In this document: positions 55,417 through 64,000 of the stretch, one piece after another
Numbering within the stretch: the stretch's first letter is position 1
Layout: each line of letters starts with the position of its first letter
From: Eubacterium sp.
GTDB taxonomy: Bacteria; Bacillota; Clostridia; Lachnospirales; Lachnospiraceae
DNA: 64,000 nt
Reading direction: 5' to 3'
Assembly (NCBI GenBank): GCA_017433825.1
Contig: JAFRGL010000025.1
Location: forward strand, 1 to 64,000
The notes under the pieces: model-generated
Told to the model about the DNA's origin: nothing
The model's input: the letters and a program-made list of their open reading frames with translations, nothing else
Databases searched by the model: none
Translations under genes and position numbers: made by a program

Positions 55417-55434
55417 CCGATGGATTGCTGAAAA

Positions 55435-55459
55435 AAAAGGGCCGGCCTTCGGCCCTTTT
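55435..55459 (+). terminator. Terminator after pgsA
   Basis: AAAAGGGCCG pairs with CGGCCCTTTT around a 5-nt loop. The T-run is only four, and no promoter is seen before the next gene 25 nt later, so read-through is likely. Confidence 0.7.
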
Positions 55460-55484: not shown

Positions 55485-56300
55485 ATGCAGGAACTGTTTT
55501 CCGGAAGTTCGGGATATGTGGCTTCCGATGAACTGATGATGGCGGTGAATATCGCCATAACGCTGGAAAAGCCGCTTCTCATTAAAGGTGAGCCCGGAAC
55601 GGGCAAAACCATGCTGGCAGCAGCCATTGCCGAAGCACTTGGCAAAAAGCTTATCGTCTGGAATATCAAATCCACCACGAAAGCATCAGACGGCCTTTAT
55701 GTTTACGATGTGGTGCAAAGGCTGTATGACAGCCAGTTCGGCAACGCCGGCGTGGACAACATCAGACAGTATATCAAGCTGGGAAAACTGGGAGAGGCTT
55801 TTACTTCCGAAGACCAGGTGGTGCTTCTTATCGACGAAATTGACAAAGCTGATCTGGAATTTCCGAATGACCTGCTCTGGGAGCTGGATCAGATGGAGTT
55901 CTTTATTCCCGAAACAAATGAAACGGTAAAAAGCATACACCGGCCAATCGTCATTATCACATCAAACGCGGAAAAAGAACTACCGGACGCTTTCCTTCGC
56001 AGATGCATCTTCCACTATATCGAATTTCCTGACAGGGAACAGATGAAGAGAATCATCGGCGTGCATTTCGACCATATCGAGGATGATTTATGCGAGGTGG
56101 CGCTGAAGGCCTTTTATGAAATCCGCGGCCTGAAGGATATTGAGAAAAAGCCCAGCACCTCCGAACTTGTGGACTGGCTGCGGGCGCTCATATCCGGCGG
56201 CGTGGACAGGGACACCATTGTCGCAAAAGTTCCGTATGCCGGCGTTCTTCTGAAAAAAGACAAAGATCTTCTTACCCTGAAAAAAAGCCTGAAAGGATAA
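55485..56300 (+). CDS. MoxR-family AAA+ ATPase
   Basis: A 271-residue AAA+ protein with Walker A GEPGTGKTM (residues 34-42), Walker B LLIDEIDKAD (near 115) and a sensor segment ITSNAEKELPDAFLRRC. MoxR ATPases usually work with a VWA protein as chaperones that mature or insert metal cofactors into enzymes. The VWA partner is encoded 3 nt downstream, and two radical-SAM genes follow. ATG 55485 has CAGGAGG upstream; the longer frame would start in the terminator. Confidence 0.9.
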   Translation: MQELFSGSSGYVASDELMMAVNIAITLEKPLLIKGEPGTGKTMLAAAIAEALGKKLIVWNIKSTTKASDGLYVYDVVQRLYDSQFGNAGVDNIRQYIKLGKLGEAFTSEDQVVLLIDEIDKADLEFPNDLLWELDQMEFFIPETNETVKSIHRPIVIITSNAEKELPDAFLRRCIFHYIEFPDREQMKRIIGVHFDHIEDDLCEVALKAFYEIRGLKDIEKKPSTSELVDWLRALISGGVDRDTIVAKVPYAGVLLKKDKDLLTLKKSLKG

Positions 56301-56303
56301 TGC

Positions 56304-57506
56304 ATGTTCCTTGAATTCTTTTATTTTCTGCGTTCGCGGAAGATAGACGTTTCCTTAAATGAATGGATAACCCTGTTATCGGCCTTAAGATGCGGGCTGC
56401 ACAAAAACAGCCTGCTGGGGTTTTATTACCTCTGCAGGATGATTGTCTGCAGATCCGAAACCGAGTTTGACCGGTTCGATCAGGCGTTTACCTCATTTTT
56501 CGGCGGCGTGGAAAAAGAACTGGAGATATCCGACGAGCTTCTGGAATGGCTGGAAAAGCCGGAGGAGCATATCCCGGACAAGGACCTTCTGGAGCTTATG
56601 ATGGAGGCCGGCAAGGAAATGCCGGAGGATATGGTACTGGATATGTTCCGGGAAAAACTGGAAGAGCAGGATGAACAGCATAACGGGGGCCGGATCTGGG
56701 TCGGCACCCAGGGCAAATCTGCCTTCGGAAATTCCGGCTACTGTCCCAGCGGCTTAAGAGTCGGCGGCGAAGGAAAGCATAACATGGCGTTTACCGTGGC
56801 GTCAGAAAGGCATTTCAAGGATTTCCGTACGGACCAGGTCCTGGACGTCCGGCAGTTCCAGATGGCGTTCAGGAGACTCAGGCAGTTTGCAAGCCAGCTG
56901 GAAAACAATGAGCTGGAATTCGATGTGGACGGCACCATCCATCATACGGCCGACAAAGGGGGTATCCTGGACGTTACTTACAAACCGCCCAGGAAGAACC
57001 GAATCAAGGTATTGCTGTTAATGGATTCCGGCGGGTCGATGGACGCCCATGTATATTTAAGCAACCAGCTTTTCCAGGCTGCCACCAAATCCAATCATTT
57101 TAAAGAACTGCATATTTATTATTTCCACAATATTATTTACGACAAGGTTTATAAGGACCCCACGGTGAATTCCCTTTCGGCCGTGGACGTGGACTGGATT
57201 TACAAAAATTACGGAAAGGAATACAAGCTCATCATGATGGGAGACGCCATGATGTCGCCCCACGAAATGTTCGAACCCAGAAGACAGTGGCAGACCAACG
57301 AAGTACTGCCCACCGGTCTGGAGTGCCTGAGGGATTTCCTTTCACATTATCCTTACGCTGTCTGGCTGAACCCCCTGGGCTTAAGCCGGGAAGAAGGCGG
57401 TCTGTTTAACCGTTCCAGAATACAGACCCAGAGAGAACTGCCCATGTATCCCCTGACCGTGGACGGCCTGACGGATGCCATGAAATCCCTTCTGGTCAGG
57501 AAATAA
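56304..57506 (+). CDS. CoxE-like VWA-domain protein, partner of the MoxR ATPase
   Basis: A 400-residue protein. The N-terminal half is helical and charged (FFYFLRSRKIDVSLNEWITL; EKPEEHIPDKDLLELMMEAG). The C-terminal VWA domain starts near residue 235 with a MIDAS of type MDSGGSMD, followed by HIYYFHNIIYDKVY and IMMGDAMMSP. CoxE-type proteins assist metal-cluster maturation, as in CO dehydrogenase. It is followed 38 nt later by the radical-SAM genes without a terminator, so all five genes may form one transcript. Confidence 0.85.
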   Translation: MFLEFFYFLRSRKIDVSLNEWITLLSALRCGLHKNSLLGFYYLCRMIVCRSETEFDRFDQAFTSFFGGVEKELEISDELLEWLEKPEEHIPDKDLLELMMEAGKEMPEDMVLDMFREKLEEQDEQHNGGRIWVGTQGKSAFGNSGYCPSGLRVGGEGKHNMAFTVASERHFKDFRTDQVLDVRQFQMAFRRLRQFASQLENNELEFDVDGTIHHTADKGGILDVTYKPPRKNRIKVLLLMDSGGSMDAHVYLSNQLFQAATKSNHFKELHIYYFHNIIYDKVYKDPTVNSLSAVDVDWIYKNYGKEYKLIMMGDAMMSPHEMFEPRRQWQTNEVLPTGLECLRDFLSHYPYAVWLNPLGLSREEGGLFNRSRIQTQRELPMYPLTVDGLTDAMKSLLVRK

Positions 57507-57544
57507 AAAACTGCTGCAGAAGCTTTACACAGGAGAAACGACAT

Positions 57545-58522
57545 ATGGCAAATATTATGCTGACGGAAAGATGCAACCTGAAATGTCCGTATTGTTTTGC
57601 CGATGAATTTGTCAATAAAGAAAATACGAATATTTCTTTGGAGAATTTTTCGAAGGCATTAATGTTTGCAATGTCCGGAAAACATTTTTCGGGAAGAATC
57701 GGCCTTATCGGGGGAGAGCCGACCCTGCATCCGCAGTTCCGGGAAATACTGCAGATTCTGCAGGAAGAAGAGCGGGTCACCAATGCTGTCATTTTCACGA
57801 ACGGAATCCGGATGGATGAAACCTTTGATATTACAAAAGAAGACAAATACACCGTACTGATTAATCTGAATTCACCGGATGATATCGGAAATGACAGCTT
57901 TGAAAAAATACAGGAAAATACGGACATATTTGTTAACAGTCTGAATAAAAGGCGTTTCCTAACGGTCGGACTGAATCTGTACAAACCGGACATGGACTGT
58001 TCTTTTTATAAAGAATTCCTGCGCAGGTTCGACGTGCATACGGCAAGGCTGTCGATAACAGTTCCCAATCATTCCCTGTCATCGGGATTTGAACGGTTTT
58101 ACGAAATGAAGAAGCTGGCCTACGACTTGTATGTCGATTTGCTGTATGACGGCAGGGAAGTGATATTTGACTGCAATATGCCTCCGTACTGTGTCTGGAC
58201 GGAGGAAGAGATGAAAAAGATTTCGCTGATCCAGTCAGGGCAGTTTGCCGGCAGAAGAGGGTTTACGCTGGGATGTTCGGAATGCAGTCCGGTTATCGAT
58301 ATCCTGCCTGACCTGACGGCTGTCCGCTGTTTCGGTATGTCTGACAGTACGAAGGTGAAGCTTTCGGATTTCAGAACGGTGGATCAGCTGTATAAATACT
58401 ATTTGAAAACGGCAGACAGCCGCATGGTGAAAATACCAAGTCTTACGAAATGCGGGTCCTGCACATATTTCAGGAAAAAACAATGTTACGGGGGATGCCT
58501 GGCCTCTAAAAAAGCGCAGTGA
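57545..58522 (+). CDS. Radical SAM protein with C-terminal Cys cluster (first of a pair)
   Basis: A 325-residue radical-SAM protein. The cluster ligands are Cys10, Cys14 and Cys17 (ERCNLKCPYCFAD), and the SAM motif LIGGEPTLHP is near residue 58. The C-terminal part has Cys in CSECSPVIDILPDLTAVRC and in KCGSCTYFRKKQCYGGC, a SPASM/twitch-like arrangement for one or two extra Fe-S clusters, which is typical of peptide-modifying enzymes. CAGGAG lies before the ATG. Seven bases separate it from the next radical-SAM gene. The substrate is unknown; the downstream repeat protein is the obvious candidate. Confidence 0.85.
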   Translation: MANIMLTERCNLKCPYCFADEFVNKENTNISLENFSKALMFAMSGKHFSGRIGLIGGEPTLHPQFREILQILQEEERVTNAVIFTNGIRMDETFDITKEDKYTVLINLNSPDDIGNDSFEKIQENTDIFVNSLNKRRFLTVGLNLYKPDMDCSFYKEFLRRFDVHTARLSITVPNHSLSSGFERFYEMKKLAYDLYVDLLYDGREVIFDCNMPPYCVWTEEEMKKISLIQSGQFAGRRGFTLGCSECSPVIDILPDLTAVRCFGMSDSTKVKLSDFRTVDQLYKYYLKTADSRMVKIPSLTKCGSCTYFRKKQCYGGCLASKKAQ

Positions 58523-58529
58523 GGGCTGA

Positions 58530-59654
58530 ATGAACAACAAACAGATTACCGTAATCGTAAAACCGACTTCCGCCTGCAACTTAAGATGCAGGTACTGTTA
58601 TCATGCTGAAACAAATTATGAAAACGGTATCCTTCCCCTTGAGAAACTGGAGCAGTTTATCCGGCTACTTCTTGAAGAATACAATTCCGTTGTCTTTATC
58701 TGGCATGGCGGTGAGCCTCTTTTGTGCGGACCGGAGTATTTTAAAGCAGCAGTGGAACTGCAGAACCGGTACAGAAAGGATGGGCAGCGAATCGTCAATG
58801 CCGTCCAGACCAATGGCATTCTTCTGGATGACGAGTTCCTGTCATTTTTCCGTGAAAACCGTTTCACCGTCAGTATTTCTTTTGACGGGCCGGGAGGATG
58901 CAATGCACTTCGCGGTGAAACCGAAAAAACAGTGGATGCGTTTATGAAAGCCATCGATGCCGGTGTGAAGCCTGCTTCATTGTCTGTCATACACAGTCTG
59001 AACATGGATAAACAGATTGAAATGTACCGTTTTTTCAAACAGTACGGACTGAACATGAAATTCAATCCGGTGTTCGGCCCTTCTTCCGAAAACGGCAAGC
59101 CGGACTATATACCTGACACAAAACGGTATATTGCTTCCCTGAAGGAGCTTTTTGAATACTGGCTTTACGATAAAACGGCCGTACATCTGGATACCATTGA
59201 CCAGTACCTTTCCATGTATTTCAGGGGGCGGGGAAGAGACTGCTGCTACGGTTCCTGCCTGTATAACTGGCTTGGAATTGACGGGAAAGGCGACCTTTAT
59301 CCATGCGGGCGGTATTACGGCCCGGAATTCCTTCTCGGGAACATCATGGATTATACGAATATCCGTCAGGTTTTTCTGCATAAAAACTATACAGAACTGA
59401 TGAAAAAAAGTATACTTAGAAGGAACCGGTGTCAGAACAGCTGCAAATACTTTTCCGTATGCCACGGTGGCTGCAACAACAGCTGTATACTGGACGGGGA
59501 TCTCGAAAAGCCCAGTGCTTTCCAGTGTATGGTATTGAAGGAAATGCTGCCGTATGTGAAAAAGACGATGGACAGTTATCTGAAAAAAACAAAACAGGAT
59601 CAGCTGAATCCGGTGATTGCCGGTTATCTGAAGACAGGGAGAAAAACAACATGA
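58530..59654 (+). CDS. Radical SAM/SPASM peptide maturase-like protein (second of a pair)
   Basis: A 374-residue enzyme of the anSME/peptide maturase class. The SAM cluster ligands are Cys16, Cys20 and Cys23 (SACNLRCRYCYHAE), WHGGEPLL binds SAM (near residue 60), and a full SPASM domain is present: CLYNWLGIDGKGDLYPC, then CQNSCKYFSVCHGGC and FQC. Relatives oxidise Cys/Ser of sulfatases or form thioether and C-C crosslinks in RiPPs. Its stop overlaps the start of the repeat membrane protein (ATGA), so the two are translated together, which supports an enzyme-substrate pair. Confidence 0.88.
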   Translation: MNNKQITVIVKPTSACNLRCRYCYHAETNYENGILPLEKLEQFIRLLLEEYNSVVFIWHGGEPLLCGPEYFKAAVELQNRYRKDGQRIVNAVQTNGILLDDEFLSFFRENRFTVSISFDGPGGCNALRGETEKTVDAFMKAIDAGVKPASLSVIHSLNMDKQIEMYRFFKQYGLNMKFNPVFGPSSENGKPDYIPDTKRYIASLKELFEYWLYDKTAVHLDTIDQYLSMYFRGRGRDCCYGSCLYNWLGIDGKGDLYPCGRYYGPEFLLGNIMDYTNIRQVFLHKNYTELMKKSILRRNRCQNSCKYFSVCHGGCNNSCILDGDLEKPSAFQCMVLKEMLPYVKKTMDSYLKKTKQDQLNPVIAGYLKTGRKTT

Positions 59655-60481
59655 AAAAGGAAACCGGATTCTTTCGAACCATAACCAGAAAAGAACTTGA
59701 TGCATTCCGTGAGCAGGAGCTGGCTCTGGTATATGCCGGCCAGGAGAATGGAAATTCCGGGGGCTTTTATGCGTACGGGGATTACATGTATTCGGATTAT
59801 ATGTACTCGGATTATACGTACTCAGATTATATGTATTCCGACTATATGTATTCCGAAAGCGGTACCGGTACGGATACCAGTCCCGGCGGACGTCATTATG
59901 AAGACAGCAACAGCTATTACGGGGATTACTACAGCGATTATTACAGCGACAGTTCCTACAGCGACAGTACATCTGACCTTTATCACAGTTCCGGCGGTTC
60001 GCACAGGGGCGGAGGTAACAGAAACGCATATGTGCCTAAAAAGGCTGTGCGGCCGATATATGTAATGTTCCTGTGGGTTGTCCCTGTTCTGGCGCTGCAC
60101 TGGTTCCTGCCCATGTTCCTGCAGAGCCGCGGCTTTAACTACATGGATATGGGGTCGGAAATGTATACGTTTTTCCTTTACCGCCATTTTCTTATAAACG
60201 GCGCTGCAGTTCTGGCCGTTTTCTGGATTACCTGTCTGCGAAGCGCCTTTTTGTACGGCAGCAAAGCAGGAGAAGCTGTCGGAACGGCCTTGCTGAAGCT
60301 TATTATTCCGGCAATTATTTACGTGGTTCTTCTGCTTTTCCTCGGAAAGACACTGGACAGCGGAAACCGGTATTACGCGCTGTTTGCCGTACAGAACCTG
60401 ATATTGATTGTCATTCTGTTCTTTATGATACTGTTTGACAACAGCAGGGCAAGGGCACTGAAAAAAAGCATGAATAAATAA
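59651..60481 (+). CDS. Membrane protein with tandem DYMYS repeats, candidate radical-SAM substrate
   Basis: A 276-residue protein of a type I do not recognise. Residues 1-35 form a charged, partly helical leader (ITRKELDAFREQELALVYAG). Residues 44-68 are five pentads DYMYS, DYMYS, DYTYS, DYMYS, DYMYS; residues 85-115 continue with YYGDYYSDYYSDSSYSDS and a Gly/Ser/His segment. From about residue 135 four membrane spans follow. ATG 59651 lies in the stop of the radical-SAM/SPASM gene, with GGGAG 8 nt upstream. The leader plus repeated core next to two maturases resembles a RiPP precursor, but the C-terminal membrane domain is atypical. Function is inferred only from context. Confidence 0.75.
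   Translation: MKKETGFFRTITRKELDAFREQELALVYAGQENGNSGGFYAYGDYMYSDYMYSDYTYSDYMYSDYMYSESGTGTDTSPGGRHYEDSNSYYGDYYSDYYSDSSYSDSTSDLYHSSGGSHRGGGNRNAYVPKKAVRPIYVMFLWVVPVLALHWFLPMFLQSRGFNYMDMGSEMYTFFLYRHFLINGAAVLAVFWITCLRSAFLYGSKAGEAVGTALLKLIIPAIIYVVLLLFLGKTLDSGNRYYALFAVQNLILIVILFFMILFDNSRARALKKSMNK
59780..59854 (+). repeat. Five 15-bp tandem repeats encoding DYMYS/DYTYS
   Basis: The units begin at 59780, 59795, 59810, 59825 and 59840. They differ at several third codon positions (for example GATTACATGTATTCG and GATTATATGTACTCG) while the protein repeat is constant except for one Thr. This pattern shows that the amino-acid repeat, not the DNA repeat, is conserved. Confidence 0.9.
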
Positions 60482-60508
60482 AAGAACATAAATAAAAGGA
60501 GAAGAATG

Positions 60509-61816
60509 ATGCAGGAAAAATTTGAAAAGCTGTTTCACGAGTTTGAAATTGAGCACCCGACAGAGGACTGGCTGAACCCGGAGCAGATATATTTCCGGGG
60601 GTCTAAAGATATTCCGGGGGCCAATATGCACTGCGGATTCCAGGTAATTACCAAGCCTGTGGAACTGCTTACTGAACCGCATTTTCACACCTATGACGAA
60701 CACATCGTCATTCTTGGTGCGGATTTCCCGGATGTATTTAAATGCTTCGATGCGGAAGTGCATTTCTACATGGGTAAAACACTGGATACCATGGAGAAAA
60801 TCGTTATTACCGAACCGACTATTCTCCGCGTCCCGAAGAATTACTGGCACGGGCCTTTGAAAATCGTGCGCACCGGCAAGCCGGTATATTTCCAGGCTGT
60901 ACTGTTCAGCGGCGAAGCGGATTACATCAAGCTTACTGAAAATCCTCACGGAAAGAGACGGTACATCTTCGAGCCTGAAACAGAGGACAGCACAAGGAAG
61001 CTTCTGGACAAACCCGAAACGAAGAATGTCCCCTGGAAGGTCATCAACGAAGACGGTGTGGAGAGATATACCGAAGACGGTGCCTATGACGACACCAAGG
61101 CCCCGGATTCAAAGACCTGCGTTATCCGTCCCGGATACACTATGATTTCCTACTCTGATGCAGCCACGCTTCTTTGCGAAAAGCCCGTGCTTACGGAAGA
61201 AATGTACAAAAATGTACTGGCTGTTCCCAGGGAAGAAACCCAGTGGGGACCCTGGTGTCCGTCACCCCAGGCATATTTCCGCGGCGATATCTACATGGAG
61301 AATTCTTTCTACAACGTAGGCTTCCAGGTCTTTACCGCAGCCAATGATATGGAAGAACCGCATTTCCACCAGGCCGTGGATGAGTATATTTTCTTCCTTT
61401 CCGCAGACCCGAAGCATCCTGAAGAGTTCGATGCGGAGATAGAATTCCTTATCGGCGATGACCCGGACCATATGGAATCCAGAATGATAACGAAGCCCAC
61501 CGTTGTCTGCCTGCCTCCCAATGTATGGCACTGCCCGATCCGCTTCAGGAAAATGAACAAGCCGCTTATTTTCCAGGCCTGCTTCCTGGACGGCACCTGG
61601 GGTACCATAGTCAGGAAAGAAGGCAATCCGGAAACTGCTTCAAAGTACTTTAACCGCACGTATACGTATGATTATATGGGTGACAATGTGCGTTTCTGCA
61701 AGTTTGACAAGAATAAACGATGCAATATCTGCGGCGCCTGCTTCCCGAAGATGGATGAAATCGATTTCGATAAGCTTGACGAGGAGCGTAAGGCCAAGGA
61801 AGCAGCGGCAAAATAG
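60509..61816 (+). CDS. Duplicated cupin-like protein with C-terminal Cys motif
   Basis: A 435-residue protein made of two related halves. Half one has LTEPHFHTYDEHIVILG, and half two EEPHFHQAVDEYIFFLS, each a cupin-type metal site (His-x-His...Glu), followed in each by VPKNYWHGPL or LPPNVWHCPI, which supplies a third His. Both halves also share a YFRG start. The C-terminus has CNICGAC, possibly a metal site. The role is unknown. ATG 60509 is preferred to 60506 for spacing from AAGGAG. It lies 27 nt after the repeat membrane protein and may be in the same transcript. Confidence 0.75.
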   Translation: MQEKFEKLFHEFEIEHPTEDWLNPEQIYFRGSKDIPGANMHCGFQVITKPVELLTEPHFHTYDEHIVILGADFPDVFKCFDAEVHFYMGKTLDTMEKIVITEPTILRVPKNYWHGPLKIVRTGKPVYFQAVLFSGEADYIKLTENPHGKRRYIFEPETEDSTRKLLDKPETKNVPWKVINEDGVERYTEDGAYDDTKAPDSKTCVIRPGYTMISYSDAATLLCEKPVLTEEMYKNVLAVPREETQWGPWCPSPQAYFRGDIYMENSFYNVGFQVFTAANDMEEPHFHQAVDEYIFFLSADPKHPEEFDAEIEFLIGDDPDHMESRMITKPTVVCLPPNVWHCPIRFRKMNKPLIFQACFLDGTWGTIVRKEGNPETASKYFNRTYTYDYMGDNVRFCKFDKNKRCNICGACFPKMDEIDFDKLDEERKAKEAAAK

Positions 61817-61842: not shown

Positions 61843-62078
61843 CAGTTCCGACAGAAAAGGAAAGCCGGTATTGGAGTAAAGCCCATGAAAAATACAGCTG
61901 TCAGAACCGGCTGATGAGGGGCAAAAAGTTGCTTCGGAGCAATTCTTTTTGAGGCCTGCTGAGGCGAGTTGTCATCAGAGAACTCGTCGAATCAGGCCGG
62001 TACCCGAAATCAGACGGTTTTGCAGCTGTAAATTTTTCAGGCTGAAACGACCTACCGGCTGTTTTTCTGTCGGAACTG
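61843..62078. other. 236-bp structured inverted element (MITE or non-coding RNA candidate)
   Basis: The ends pair perfectly over 16 bp: 61843-61858 with 62063-62078. Inside follow AGCCGGTA/TACCGGCT (61863-61870 with 62053-62060), TGAAAAATACAGCTG with CAGCTGTAaaTTTTTCA (61886-61900 with 62023-62039) and AACCG/CGGTT. The tip carries two hairpins: CAAAAAG..TTGCT/AGCAA..CTTTTTG (61922-61951) and GGCCTG/CAGGCC with inner CGAGTT/AACTCG (61953-61998). It fills the gap between two convergent genes and holds no open frame of note. Confidence 0.7.
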
Positions 62079-62081
62079 ATT

Positions 62082-63050
62082 TTAATTGTTTGTTAATTCT
62101 GAGTGTTTAAACGATGTCAGCCCGGTATCGGAGAAGCGCTCTTTCCATCTGCCGACCGGGCAGTAAATCAGGCATTTCTCGCAGAAACTTCTCGGATAAT
62201 GCTCCATGCCGCCGCCTGCTATCGGCTTCTTTTCGAAGGCCGCCTCCAGTTCCTCATCTGTGGGATGATTGGAAGATACCAGATCCGGCACAGGGGCACG
62301 GCCCTTAAATTCACTTCGCAGTGCCAGGGATGCTACCGTACAGGCATTGGCGTCTATGTCCGAAACCGTCTGTTTCTTTCCCTTTACCCTTATTTCCATT
62401 GCGCATCCTGCACAAGGCTCCGGAATAGCGCCGGTCGGGCACACCTTTGCGCAGATACCGCATTCTTCCGGATTGCACAGAACAGGTCCGTCATAAGGGG
62501 CGTCAGGCGTAAGTTCCAGCGTGGTAATCACCGCTGTAAGCATCTGTCTGGGACCGTATTCCGGGGTGAGGAAACGTCTGCTCCAGCCGAATTCACCTAA
62601 GCCCGCGGCCAGTGCCGCCTTGCCGATATCCAGGGGCATGCCCTGACCGTATGGGTCGGCAAAGAATTTGCCCGGCGCGTGTTTCCAGCGCATGCTCTGC
62701 ATCACGTTGAACGGGCAGGGGACGGAAACCGCATGGAAGGTGTCTTCCAGATAAGCGGTGATTTTAAAAGCATCGTTGAAAAGCAGGATATTCGGTGCCA
62801 GTTCGTCACAGTAGGCCTGATAGGAGCTCTGCGCGCTGAAATTGCCGTCTTCCTTCGCACGGAACATGCCGGATACCGCGCCGTCCGCAAAGCTTCGTCC
62901 GAAAACGATAATGCTTTTCGCACCGGGCATAAGATCGGAAGGACGGTGCCCTTCCGGTTCGTCAGAGAGTGCATCTGCGGATGCGAAACCCACAAGGTCA
63001 AGATCATAATTTGTTTTCAGGAATGATTTCAGTTCTTCCGTATTTATCAC
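62082..63050 (-). CDS. 4Fe-4S double-cluster protein, epoxyqueuosine-reductase-like
   Basis: A 322-residue iron-sulfur protein related to the QueG/reductive dehalogenase-like group. A ferredoxin-type motif CGICAKVCPTGAIPEPC (near residue 200) and a later CEKCLIYCPVG (near 290) should hold two 4Fe-4S clusters. GLGEFGWSRRFLTPEYGPRQ is the family's core block. True QueG is longer and binds cobalamin; that role is not certain here. A paralogue lies upstream in the same operon. Its stop is 4 bp from the structured element. Confidence 0.7.
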   Translation of the reverse strand: MINTEELKSFLKTNYDLDLVGFASADALSDEPEGHRPSDLMPGAKSIIVFGRSFADGAVSGMFRAKEDGNFSAQSSYQAYCDELAPNILLFNDAFKITAYLEDTFHAVSVPCPFNVMQSMRWKHAPGKFFADPYGQGMPLDIGKAALAAGLGEFGWSRRFLTPEYGPRQMLTAVITTLELTPDAPYDGPVLCNPEECGICAKVCPTGAIPEPCAGCAMEIRVKGKKQTVSDIDANACTVASLALRSEFKGRAPVPDLVSSNHPTDEELEAAFEKKPIAGGGMEHYPRSFCEKCLIYCPVGRWKERFSDTGLTSFKHSELTNN

Positions 63051-63068
63051 AGCGCATCCATCCTCCCT

Positions 63069-63404
63069 TCAAAGCAGGCCGTTCCGGCGGTCAACCCGCA
63101 GGATCATAAACCCCAGGGTTTCGGAAGACAGTACATTTCCTTCATCGTCCGTTTCCACTTCTTCCACACGTCCCCAACGTTCTTCATCCGTCCAGTCAGT
63201 CTGGTATTTCTCCGGCCCGACTTCCTTAATCCAGGCGCCGTTATCCAGTCCGAAGTACCGTCCGCTGCCGCTGGTTACGGCTCCGGAGTGAAATTCCCGG
63301 CTTTCACCGCCGGTCCTTGTATTGATGACCTTGTAAATATGCTCTCCTTTGTATTCTCTTTTAACTTCCGGATGGAAGCCTGCATGAATAATAATCTGCT
63401 TCAT
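63069..63404 (-). CDS. Small protein of unknown function between two Fe-S paralogues
   Basis: A 111-residue acidic soluble protein (residues such as HAGFHPEVKREYKGEHIYKV at the start and RWGRVEEVETDDEGNVLS later). No signal, membrane span or Cys motif is seen. Its start overlaps the stop of the upstream Fe-S gene (ATGA), and the next Fe-S gene begins 18 nt after its end, so all three are co-transcribed. I do not recognise the family. Confidence 0.65.
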   Translation of the reverse strand: MKQIIIHAGFHPEVKREYKGEHIYKVINTRTGGESREFHSGAVTSGSGRYFGLDNGAWIKEVGPEKYQTDWTDEERWGRVEEVETDDEGNVLSSETLGFMILRVDRRNGLL

Positions 63405-64000
63405 TTTCCAGTCTCCTTTACGTCAAAAGAAGAAAATCCGGTGTCGTAAAACCGTTCTTTCCAGTTCCCTAAGGGGCAGTAAAGCCTGCATAAATCACAG
63501 TAATAGTCCGGATAATGGGAGAATGACCAGGATGCTATCGGCTTTTCGGCATAGGCTTTTTTCAGCTCTTCATCTGTCGGGTGGTCGGTCAGTATCTGAT
63601 CCGGGACCTTGTATTTTCCCGCGAATTCCTGCCGGAAGGCCATGGACGCCACCGCGCAGGCATTTGAATTAACACAGGAGACGTTGTAAACCTTGTCGCA
63701 GATCATGAATTCCTCGGTTTTGCCGCCTGCTTCGGGAATGGCTTTTGTCGGACATAAGCGTATACAGATTCCGCATTTTTCCGGATTGCACAGTTTTGGA
63801 CCGTCGTACGGACTGTCATAATCCAGCTCCAGGGTGGTCAGCACCAGCCCGATTCCCTGCCTGGGTCCGTTTTCCTCCGTCACAAAGGCATTATTCCAGG
63901 CAATTTCCCCAAGGCCAGCGGCAACGGCTGCCCGGACGGGATCCAGGATAGCAGTATTGGCTTTCGCTCCAGTAAAGGTGGGAAGAGGAATATTGACGGG
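63401..64000 (-). CDS. 4Fe-4S double-cluster protein, epoxyqueuosine-reductase-like (partial, 5' end beyond window)
   Basis: The frame is open to the window edge, so the N-terminus is missing. The visible 199 residues align with the downstream paralogue: AAVAAGLGEIAWNNAFVTE, LTTLELDYDSPYDGP, CGICIRLCPTKAIP and CDLCRLYCPLGNWKERFYDTG. It has the same two cluster motifs. The gene is first of the minus-strand trio visible here. Confidence 0.7.
   Translation of the reverse strand, partial: PVNIPLPTFTGAKANTAILDPVRAAVAAGLGEIAWNNAFVTEENGPRQGIGLVLTTLELDYDSPYDGPKLCNPEKCGICIRLCPTKAIPEAGGKTEEFMICDKVYNVSCVNSNACAVASMAFRQEFAGKYKVPDQILTDHPTDEELKKAYAEKPIASWSFSHYPDYYCDLCRLYCPLGNWKERFYDTGFSSFDVKETGK

Follow-up and report, generated by a model that had tools for sequence, protein, structure and literature searches.

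Radical SAM genes beside a Tyr/Ser/Asp-repeat membrane protein in a Eubacterium sp. genome: a candidate repeat-modification module next to a separate MoxR-VWA pair

The window analysed here is a 64,000-nucleotide (nt) stretch of DNA from a rumen Eubacterium sp. of the family Lachnospiraceae (contig JAFRGL010000025.1), in which positions 55485 to 60481 hold five forward-strand genes: a MoxR-type AAA+ ATPase, a VWA protein, two radical S-adenosylmethionine (SAM) proteins called rSAM1 and rSAM2, and a repeat membrane protein called REP. The locus raises the question of whether these genes form one system and what the radical SAM proteins act on. Analysis indicated that the block is two modules, MoxR-VWA and rSAM1-rSAM2-REP. 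The trio is read, with a probability of about 0.5, as a modification module separate from MoxR-VWA in which REP would be the substrate, rSAM2 would staple its aromatic-X-Asp triads and rSAM1 would make a second change. The observed basis is gene order, sequence-level family membership, recurrent neighbourhoods and motif spacing. The initial annotation had proposed a chaperoned peptide-modification system; modification of the Tyr/Ser/Asp repeats is retained as the best reading because homologous rSAM1- or rSAM2-type genes lie near Tyr-rich or aromatic-X-Asp/Asn proteins elsewhere, while the chaperoned part is dropped.

The open reading frame (ORF) check returned the five genes with the coordinates, strand and spacing first given, the gaps along the block being 3, 38, 7 and -4 nt (the last an ATGA overlap). 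The terminator scan likewise agreed with the initial annotation in placing no terminator-like site inside any intergenic gap of the block, and found 4 such sites, below the shuffle mean of 7.8. Both rSAM1 (57545-58522), which has a C-terminal Cys cluster, and the SPASM-type rSAM2 (58530-59654) matched Radical_SAM in Pfam. REP (59651-60481) is a protein of 276 amino acids (aa) with a membrane part at residues 131-270 (60041-60460) comprising about four hydrophobic segments by hydropathy, in line with the membrane tethering suggested earlier. Basic residues that directly precede the first segment, and others at the C-terminus, hint weakly that the repeat domain may be cytoplasmic. Five head-to-tail D-Y-(M/T)-Y-S units occupy residues 44-68 (59780-59854), and a second Tyr/Ser/Asp patch is also present. 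The Tyr/Ser/Asp-rich stretch as a whole (residues 38-122, 59762-60016, bounds set by eye) contained 10 aromatic-X-Asp triads, where shuffling predicts 3.8 (p 0.0004, z 4.1), and 7 of the 10 were Tyr-Ser-Asp; a narrower, automatically chosen stretch showed a weaker excess (4 triads, z 2.6).

The same spacing was found in unrelated repeat proteins. In every tested repeat protein paired with an rSAM2-type enzyme, the +2 offset was the peak, and +1 and +3 were not enriched there. The +2 triad z-score was 10.4 in phage contig L091, 13.1 in Thermus phage Cumys, 13.2 in L260, 8.2-13.4 in L381-L392 and 5.8-6.9 in the repeat proteins of genomes G978 and G1002. The L091 partner contained 39 triads against 12.1 expected, with Tyr-Ser-Asp mixed with His/Trp-X-Asn. 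The partners of rSAM1 alone (L100, L101, L102 and genome G373) showed no +2 enrichment (z -1.5 to 0.3). The partners of rSAM2-type enzymes carry aromatic-X-Asp/Asn triads, and those of rSAM1 alone are Tyr-rich without triads.

Genomes G978 and G1002 came from an rSAM1 search of 214 phylum genomes that was made after the triad idea was noted. Each contained two loci, and rSAM1, an rSAM2-like enzyme (28-29% identity, E-values 2e-39 to 4e-42), an aromatic-X-Asn/Asp repeat protein and a U32-family protein stood together at 4/4 of them (L367-L370). The repeat proteins were 243-261 aa long with Tyr/Trp-X-Asn/Asp repeats. Genes resembling type II secretion/Tad components precede L367 and L369; L367, the locus scanned, gave T2SSE and T2SSF matches.

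The closest relatives of rSAM1, which belongs to a small family, were found in G373, G127 and G450 (39-41% identity), and those in G978, G1002 and phage contigs were 29-35% identical. A tree set 18 rSAM1-family rows and a distant Thiodictyon row apart from 9 other radical SAM rows with support of 100/99, several branches being long and the inner forks mostly unresolved. An ORF was scored as Tyr-rich if any 50-residue stretch had 12 or more Tyr; within 3 kb of the radical SAM gene, such ORFs were present at 6/14 viral rSAM1-family loci versus 1/65 control loci, the controls being radical SAM loci returned by the same scan at weaker similarity. Within 4.5 kb the counts were 7/14 and 2/65. The Tyr-rich gene stood directly upstream of rSAM1 in phage contigs L091/L092, L100/L104, L101 and L102, and several of the phage Tyr-rich genes lay downstream of genes that look structural by inspection. 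In G373, an 83-aa peptide with 33% Tyr was found 3.7 kb upstream within the rSAM1 cluster. Tyr-rich ORFs 3.3 kb from an rSAM1 relative (25% identity) in L422, and between 3 and 4.5 kb away in L103, were not counted as partners.

Some phage contigs are recoded, and in these rSAM1 is open with TGA read as Trp (L093) or TAG as Gln (L097, L103, L105); a reading of L093 with codes 15 and 6 was replaced, since TGA as Trp opens the rSAM1 match. Searching annotated phages by tblastn with rSAM1, the L091 rSAM1 and the L092 repeat gave no match, BLAST masking simple repeats, and PHROGs returned generic radical SAM families only and nothing for REP and four phage Tyr-rich proteins.

Searching with rSAM2 by tblastn led to the Thermus phages phiMa and Cumys, where a 343-aa protein dense in His-Ser/Thr/Gly/Ala-Asp lies upstream of the radical SAM gene in Cumys. 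A scan with three radical SAM queries of this type returned 32 loci, 14 of them strong, including the seeds L260 (with repeat) and L330 (without). All 12 new strong loci, in 7 clusters at 70% identity, carried an aromatic-X-Asp (His/Tyr-X-Asp) protein, versus 0/18 weak matches with a triad-rich ORF (standard code only). The protein was directly upstream of the radical SAM gene in nine new loci; the distance was 1.2 kb in L391 and 3.2 kb in L385/L386. The middle residue of the phage triads varied (Ser, Gly, Thr, Ala, Gln, Val and others) and Asp far exceeded Asn at position 3, the constancy of positions 1 and 3 being partly due to the definition of a triad. The module (L380-L392, L246, L260) lies in the tail region, with an annotated DUF483 protein in Cumys and a marginal DUF483 match in L260. 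As an observation on the enzyme itself, the Cumys radical SAM protein (L246, 5001-6251) itself carries His-Gly-Asp triads in its C-terminal tail, and one of them is invariant in three aligned homologues.

A number of findings weigh against the reading of the trio as a repeat-modifying module. The shuffle z-scores are inflated by repeats, and other offsets were enriched as well, namely +5 in L091 and G978/G1002, +1 in L102 and +3 in L101. The 4/4 result in G978 and G1002 represents one lineage, and its partners reached at most 9 Tyr in 50 residues, under the Tyr-rich threshold. Since L100/L104, L101 and L102 are mutually 64-74% identical, the Tyr-rich partner is seen in only 2/8 viral lineages at 60% identity (lineages were grouped by computed identity where rows were available, and recoded loci by hand), and in 5/14 lineages once the cellular ones and L411-L413 are added. 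The other 9/14 rSAM1 lineages showed no recognised partner (G127, G450, L093, L094, L097, L098/L099, L103/L105, L182 and L411-L413), with L094 lying at a contig edge. A triad protein was present in 3/8 lineages with both enzymes (window, L091/L092 and G978/G1002); both enzymes occurred without one in G450 and L093, where the rSAM2 match was strong, and in L182, L411-L413 and L103/L105, where it was weaker. The rSAM2-based scan gave a triad-rich ORF at only 4/80 loci (L091, L092, L260, L279) and at 0/65 controls, and no triad-rich or Tyr-rich ORF accompanied the closest viral rSAM2 relative, L251 (35%). Nine further loci of that scan had Tyr-rich ORFs on the opposite strand only and were not counted. 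In addition, the phage enzymes that accompany repeats share only about 24-29% identity with rSAM2, which also fell below the cut-offs of the cyclophane models: 115.7/310 bits for GrrM/OscB, 101.8/445 for YhhB, 106.3/425 for AmcB, 56.3/450 for XyeB and 62.4/370 for FxsB, with no YxdB model among those matched. Judged from the sequences, SPASM enzymes and triads are linked at the level of a wide family, as a pattern and not by strict orthology.

These gaps count in part against the initial annotation's view that the repeat protein accompanies the radical SAM pair. REP homologues are known from two genomes only, both of this genus, and the pair in G450 had no recognised repeat protein; elsewhere, unrelated repeat proteins stand beside such enzymes. 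A REP match at E up to 0.1 was recorded in 52/397 genomes of the family, the best besides that of G000 (the window's genome) at 3.2e-4. Distant REP homologues in the family were tried and set aside, the best match covering a permease-like gene (by inspection) and the two stretches examined, L088 and L089, having no rSAM1 or rSAM2 homologue.

Another explanation takes the repeats as passive, of low complexity, and places the target of the enzymes elsewhere, in a small molecule, a nucleic acid (RNA or DNA) or some other protein. It draws on the 9/14 lineages with no recognised partner and on the DNA modification proposed for the Thermus phage module (PMC11437467, seen in part). It is nevertheless unlikely, given the Tyr-rich neighbours at rSAM1 loci relative to controls, the repeat protein at every G978/G1002 locus, the twelve new Cumys-type loci against none of the weak matches, and a partner gene that is mostly directly adjacent. 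REP as the substrate of the pair is considered probable.

What rSAM2 would do to the repeats is less firmly placed. Its closest solved structure was the anaerobic sulfatase maturase (anSME) 4k36 (E 8e-41), and anSME was also the closest NCBIfam model (203.4 of 349.45 bits, below cut-off). The protein aligned with anSME through the SPASM region and with the Radical_SAM core of Pfam, and had no match to the Pfam SPASM model; eight Cys besides the core three were invariant in a five-row rSAM2 alignment. Asp277 of 4k36, the residue after a SPASM Cys and the general base of the sulfatase maturase, aligned to Gly260 of rSAM2. Sulfatase maturation as the role of rSAM2 was rejected, the score lying below the model cut-off and Asp277 being replaced. 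Pfam and NCBIfam found no sulfatase among the five genes and a sixth, CUP, that follows them.

A related explanation makes rSAM2 a serine-type enzyme resembling the sulfatase maturase, which would oxidise the triad Ser to formylglycine or a further product and use Tyr and Asp for recognition only. It fits the anSME relationship and the Ser in the middle of 7/10 REP triads, yet it is quite unlikely in view of the change of Asp277 to Gly260 and of the phage repeats, in which the middle residue varies and Asp is far more frequent than Asn at position 3. Under the stapling reading, rSAM2 would work repeatedly along the Tyr-Ser-Asp triads of REP, and the odds lean slightly towards its acting on positions 1 and 3. 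The favoured link would run from the ring of each Tyr to the Asp at i+2, at its beta-carbon, because YxdB is reported to make a C3(Tyr)-Cbeta(Asp) link in a three-residue cyclophane (PMC11002830, a review, seen in part), a geometry that matches Tyr-Ser-Asp in REP; a cyclophane as the actual product is put forward tentatively. rSAM1 would add a second, unspecified change on the Tyr-rich stretch, and its action on Tyr has somewhat less than an even chance. Cross-linking would stiffen the repeat domain, which the C-terminal half of REP would hold at the membrane.

Whether MoxR and VWA belong to this process was examined through their distribution. The MoxR-type ATPase (55485-56300, Pfam AAA match) and its CoxE-like VWA partner (56304-57506) make up a stand-alone neighbouring module. 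The VWA protein scored 21.0 bits against VWA_CoxE of Pfam, below the cut-off of 26.4, and homologues scored 27.8 and 25.4. Known MoxR-VWA pairs are CoxD/CoxE and RavA/ViaA, in which a VWA gene likewise comes after a gene for an AAA+ MoxR protein, and the adjacent genes of the window resemble CoxD/CoxE-type pairs in this respect; apparently unlike those, the Lachnospiraceae pair had no metalloenzyme recognised by inspection alongside it (5 loci, neighbours not all scanned). MoxR-VWA is here an ordinary pair.

An integrated five- or six-gene system, in which MoxR-VWA chaperones the radical SAM enzymes or modified REP, would account for the six-gene order and near-identical spacing shared by G000 and the sister species G001, for gaps free of terminator-like sites and for both modules being held by the G373 genome. 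The distributions make it very doubtful. At E up to 1e-30, VWA was found in 76/397 family genomes, versus 3/397 for rSAM1 at E up to 1e-14 (G000, G127 and G373), and apart from weak partial matches REP was present in G000 only; G001 was outside this draw. Among the window's own genome and 60 relatives, VWA occurred in 7/61 and REP in 2/61, and where VWA occurred without REP (five genomes) the pair sat among varying genes, with an rSAM1 or rSAM2 homologue in 0/5 of these longer stretches. MoxR adjoined VWA in 24/26 further VWA stretches and a radical SAM gene in 0/26, these reaching about 1.5 kb past the gene. VWA and rSAM1 of G373 were on different contigs, G127 and G450 had rSAM1 with VWA not found, and no MoxR or VWA match appeared in the rSAM1 loci L086, L087, L095 and L367-L370 or in the phage stretches examined.

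Divergence pointed the same way. Synonymous divergence (dS) between the window and G001 was 0.35-0.73 for rSAM1, rSAM2 and REP and 0.73-1.46 for the upstream gene pgsA, MoxR, VWA and CUP (5-95% of 100 bootstraps, the two ranges just touching), and GC content was 0.445-0.471 for the trio and 0.485-0.505 for the other four genes. The gene pgsA was found in 4/6 same-genus genomes and was followed by other genes in G003, G004 and G006, unlike in G001. Taken together, distribution, dS, GC and pgsA neighbours suggest that the three genes are a cassette which either entered the MoxR-VWA neighbourhood or travels without it. As far as seen, this genus alone has MoxR-VWA beside the radical SAM trio. A part for MoxR-VWA in the modification was therefore rejected on its distribution across genomes, and with it the earlier view of one linked VWA and radical SAM system; the co-occurrence of all five genes that it had anticipated was kept in one sister species, and elsewhere MoxR-VWA occurred alone.

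The explanation that hydroxylation or glycosylation of Tyr is the main outcome, with the radical SAM enzymes preparing the site, is the least likely of all: Peptidase_U32 was above cut-off in G373 and the four G978/G1002 loci and just below it in L094, and GT8 (L100, L101, L102) and two GT9 (G373) glycosyltransferases were found, but Pfam matched neither U32 nor glycosyltransferase families among the block genes of the window. Oxygen-independent hydroxylation is known for some U32 proteins. The G373 cluster (L086, 4776-17635) held, besides the two GT9 genes, the U32-family protein, an AMP-binding enzyme, a carrier protein and weak GNAT matches, together with PfkB/cytidylyltransferase, epimerase and SIS genes that fit ADP-heptose synthesis, a pathway label given from inspection. 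Anti-phage defence was rejected, as PADLOC matched only generic AAA and viperin-core.

As separate observations on the neighbours of radical SAM genes, the GT8 genes of L100, L101 and L102 lie downstream of rSAM1, and L100 also has a UPF0489-like gene, below cut-off. In G450 (L095, 8901-19251), the rSAM1 and rSAM2 homologues stand with further radical SAM-like genes and M16 peptidases, of which Pfam confirmed one and inspection suggested two, and no precursor was recognised. The Thiodictyon plasmid pTs417 (L096) carries an rSAM1 relative (24%) beside an annotated PqqD-family chaperone, amidohydrolase, YcaO and TfuA. In L279 (9573-10076), a phage protein with Cys-His-Ser-Asn/Asp repeats lies beside four radical SAM genes.

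Compared with described systems, the nearest concepts appear to be the triceptides, the His-Xaa-Ser system and TvgA/TvgB, from which the block would differ in model cut-offs and in substrate type. The triceptide enzymes (XncB, OscB, YxdB, YhhB, HaaB) are likewise SPASM-type radical SAM proteins acting on an aromatic-X-X3 motif with i to i+2 spacing. Unlike them, rSAM2 is far below the testable model cut-offs, REP is a tandem-repeat membrane protein of 276 aa and not a short leader-core peptide, and a second radical SAM protein is present. The His-Xaa-Ser system consists of the repeat protein HxsA with two radical SAM proteins, and so shares with the block two such enzymes and a tripeptide-repeat protein. 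It differs in that neither enzyme is near the cut-offs (rSAM1 scored 36.1 of 267.9 bits against HxsC, and rSAM2 57.0 of 370 against HxsB), the REP motif is Tyr-Ser-Asp and REP is membrane-bound. The His-Xaa-Ser motif, HxsB and HxsC are named in the part of PMC9062424 seen, which also reports for TvgA/TvgB that a SPASM radical SAM enzyme repeats one change many times along a TVGG repeat peptide; repeated modification by a SPASM enzyme would be common to both, while TvgA/TvgB has a Val target, a peptide precursor and a single radical SAM enzyme. anSME, although the closest relative of rSAM2 in sequence and solved structure, differs by the Asp277 to Gly change and by the lack of a sulfatase among the six genes. 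The Cumys/phiMa module resembles the window in pairing an aromatic-X-Asp repeat protein with an rSAM2-like enzyme (25-26%) and lies in the tail region, and is unlike it in having His for Tyr, an annotated DUF483 protein and no rSAM1. The authors of the Thermus phage study presented this radical SAM module as including two proteins to which no function was assigned, and suggested DNA modification; a repeat-modifying role is not described in the part of PMC11437467 seen or in the open-licence PubMed Central (PMC) matches listed. Among the open-licence PMC matches listed, no system linking radical SAM to Tyr-rich, phage or tail proteins was described, and open-licence PMC literature on MadB/MadC held nothing relevant.

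A wider proposal, which is rather unlikely as a whole, is that radical SAM enzymes staple long aromatic-X-Asp/Asn repeats of structural proteins, in phage tails and at the cell membrane or surface, by multiple i to i+2 cross-links. These would form a covalently reinforced structural class distinct from peptide natural products. In this scheme rSAM1 would be a second enzyme, specific for Tyr, and the window operon a membrane-anchored cellular form. If true, radical SAM peptide chemistry, so far mainly on short natural-product precursors, would extend to large structural proteins including those of the phage tail region, and the unexplained Thermus phage module would gain a fresh reading. Substrate choice would be testable, rSAM2-type enzymes tracking aromatic-X-Asp/Asn triads and rSAM1 alone tracking Tyr-richness without triads. 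The proposal would also bear on phage adhesion and on the surface biology of anaerobes, and multi-staple enzymes could be drawn from such systems.

At the upstream edge of the block, between pgsA and MoxR, a GC-rich hairpin with A and T runs (55432-55459) was read by eye, the terminator scan not listing this site, and is a probable terminator separating the two genes. All six genes were under purifying selection relative to G001 (dN/dS 0.035-0.155), rSAM1 being measured on the 296 codons downstream of an interruption: its frame in G001 (L049, 8515-9493) is broken near codon 30 with the remainder conserved, through either assembly error or real loss. CUP (60506-61816, forward strand) starts 24 nt after REP, a place kept in G001, and encodes 436 aa in two cupin-like halves, the double-cupin label coming from inspection. 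It had no Pfam, NCBIfam or PDB match, showed only partial matches, in 2 of 8 other genomes, and resembled MoxR-VWA in divergence, unlike the radical SAM trio. Just past the block, a 16-nt sequence at 61843-61858 recurs as an exact inverted copy at 62063-62078, about 200 nt downstream, and may be a small mobile or regulatory element. On the reverse strand, 62082-63883 encodes two neighbouring Fe-S proteins with a small gene between them, epoxyqueuosine-reductase-like by inspection; the part scanned, the 62082-63050 product, gave Fer4 matches below cut-off.

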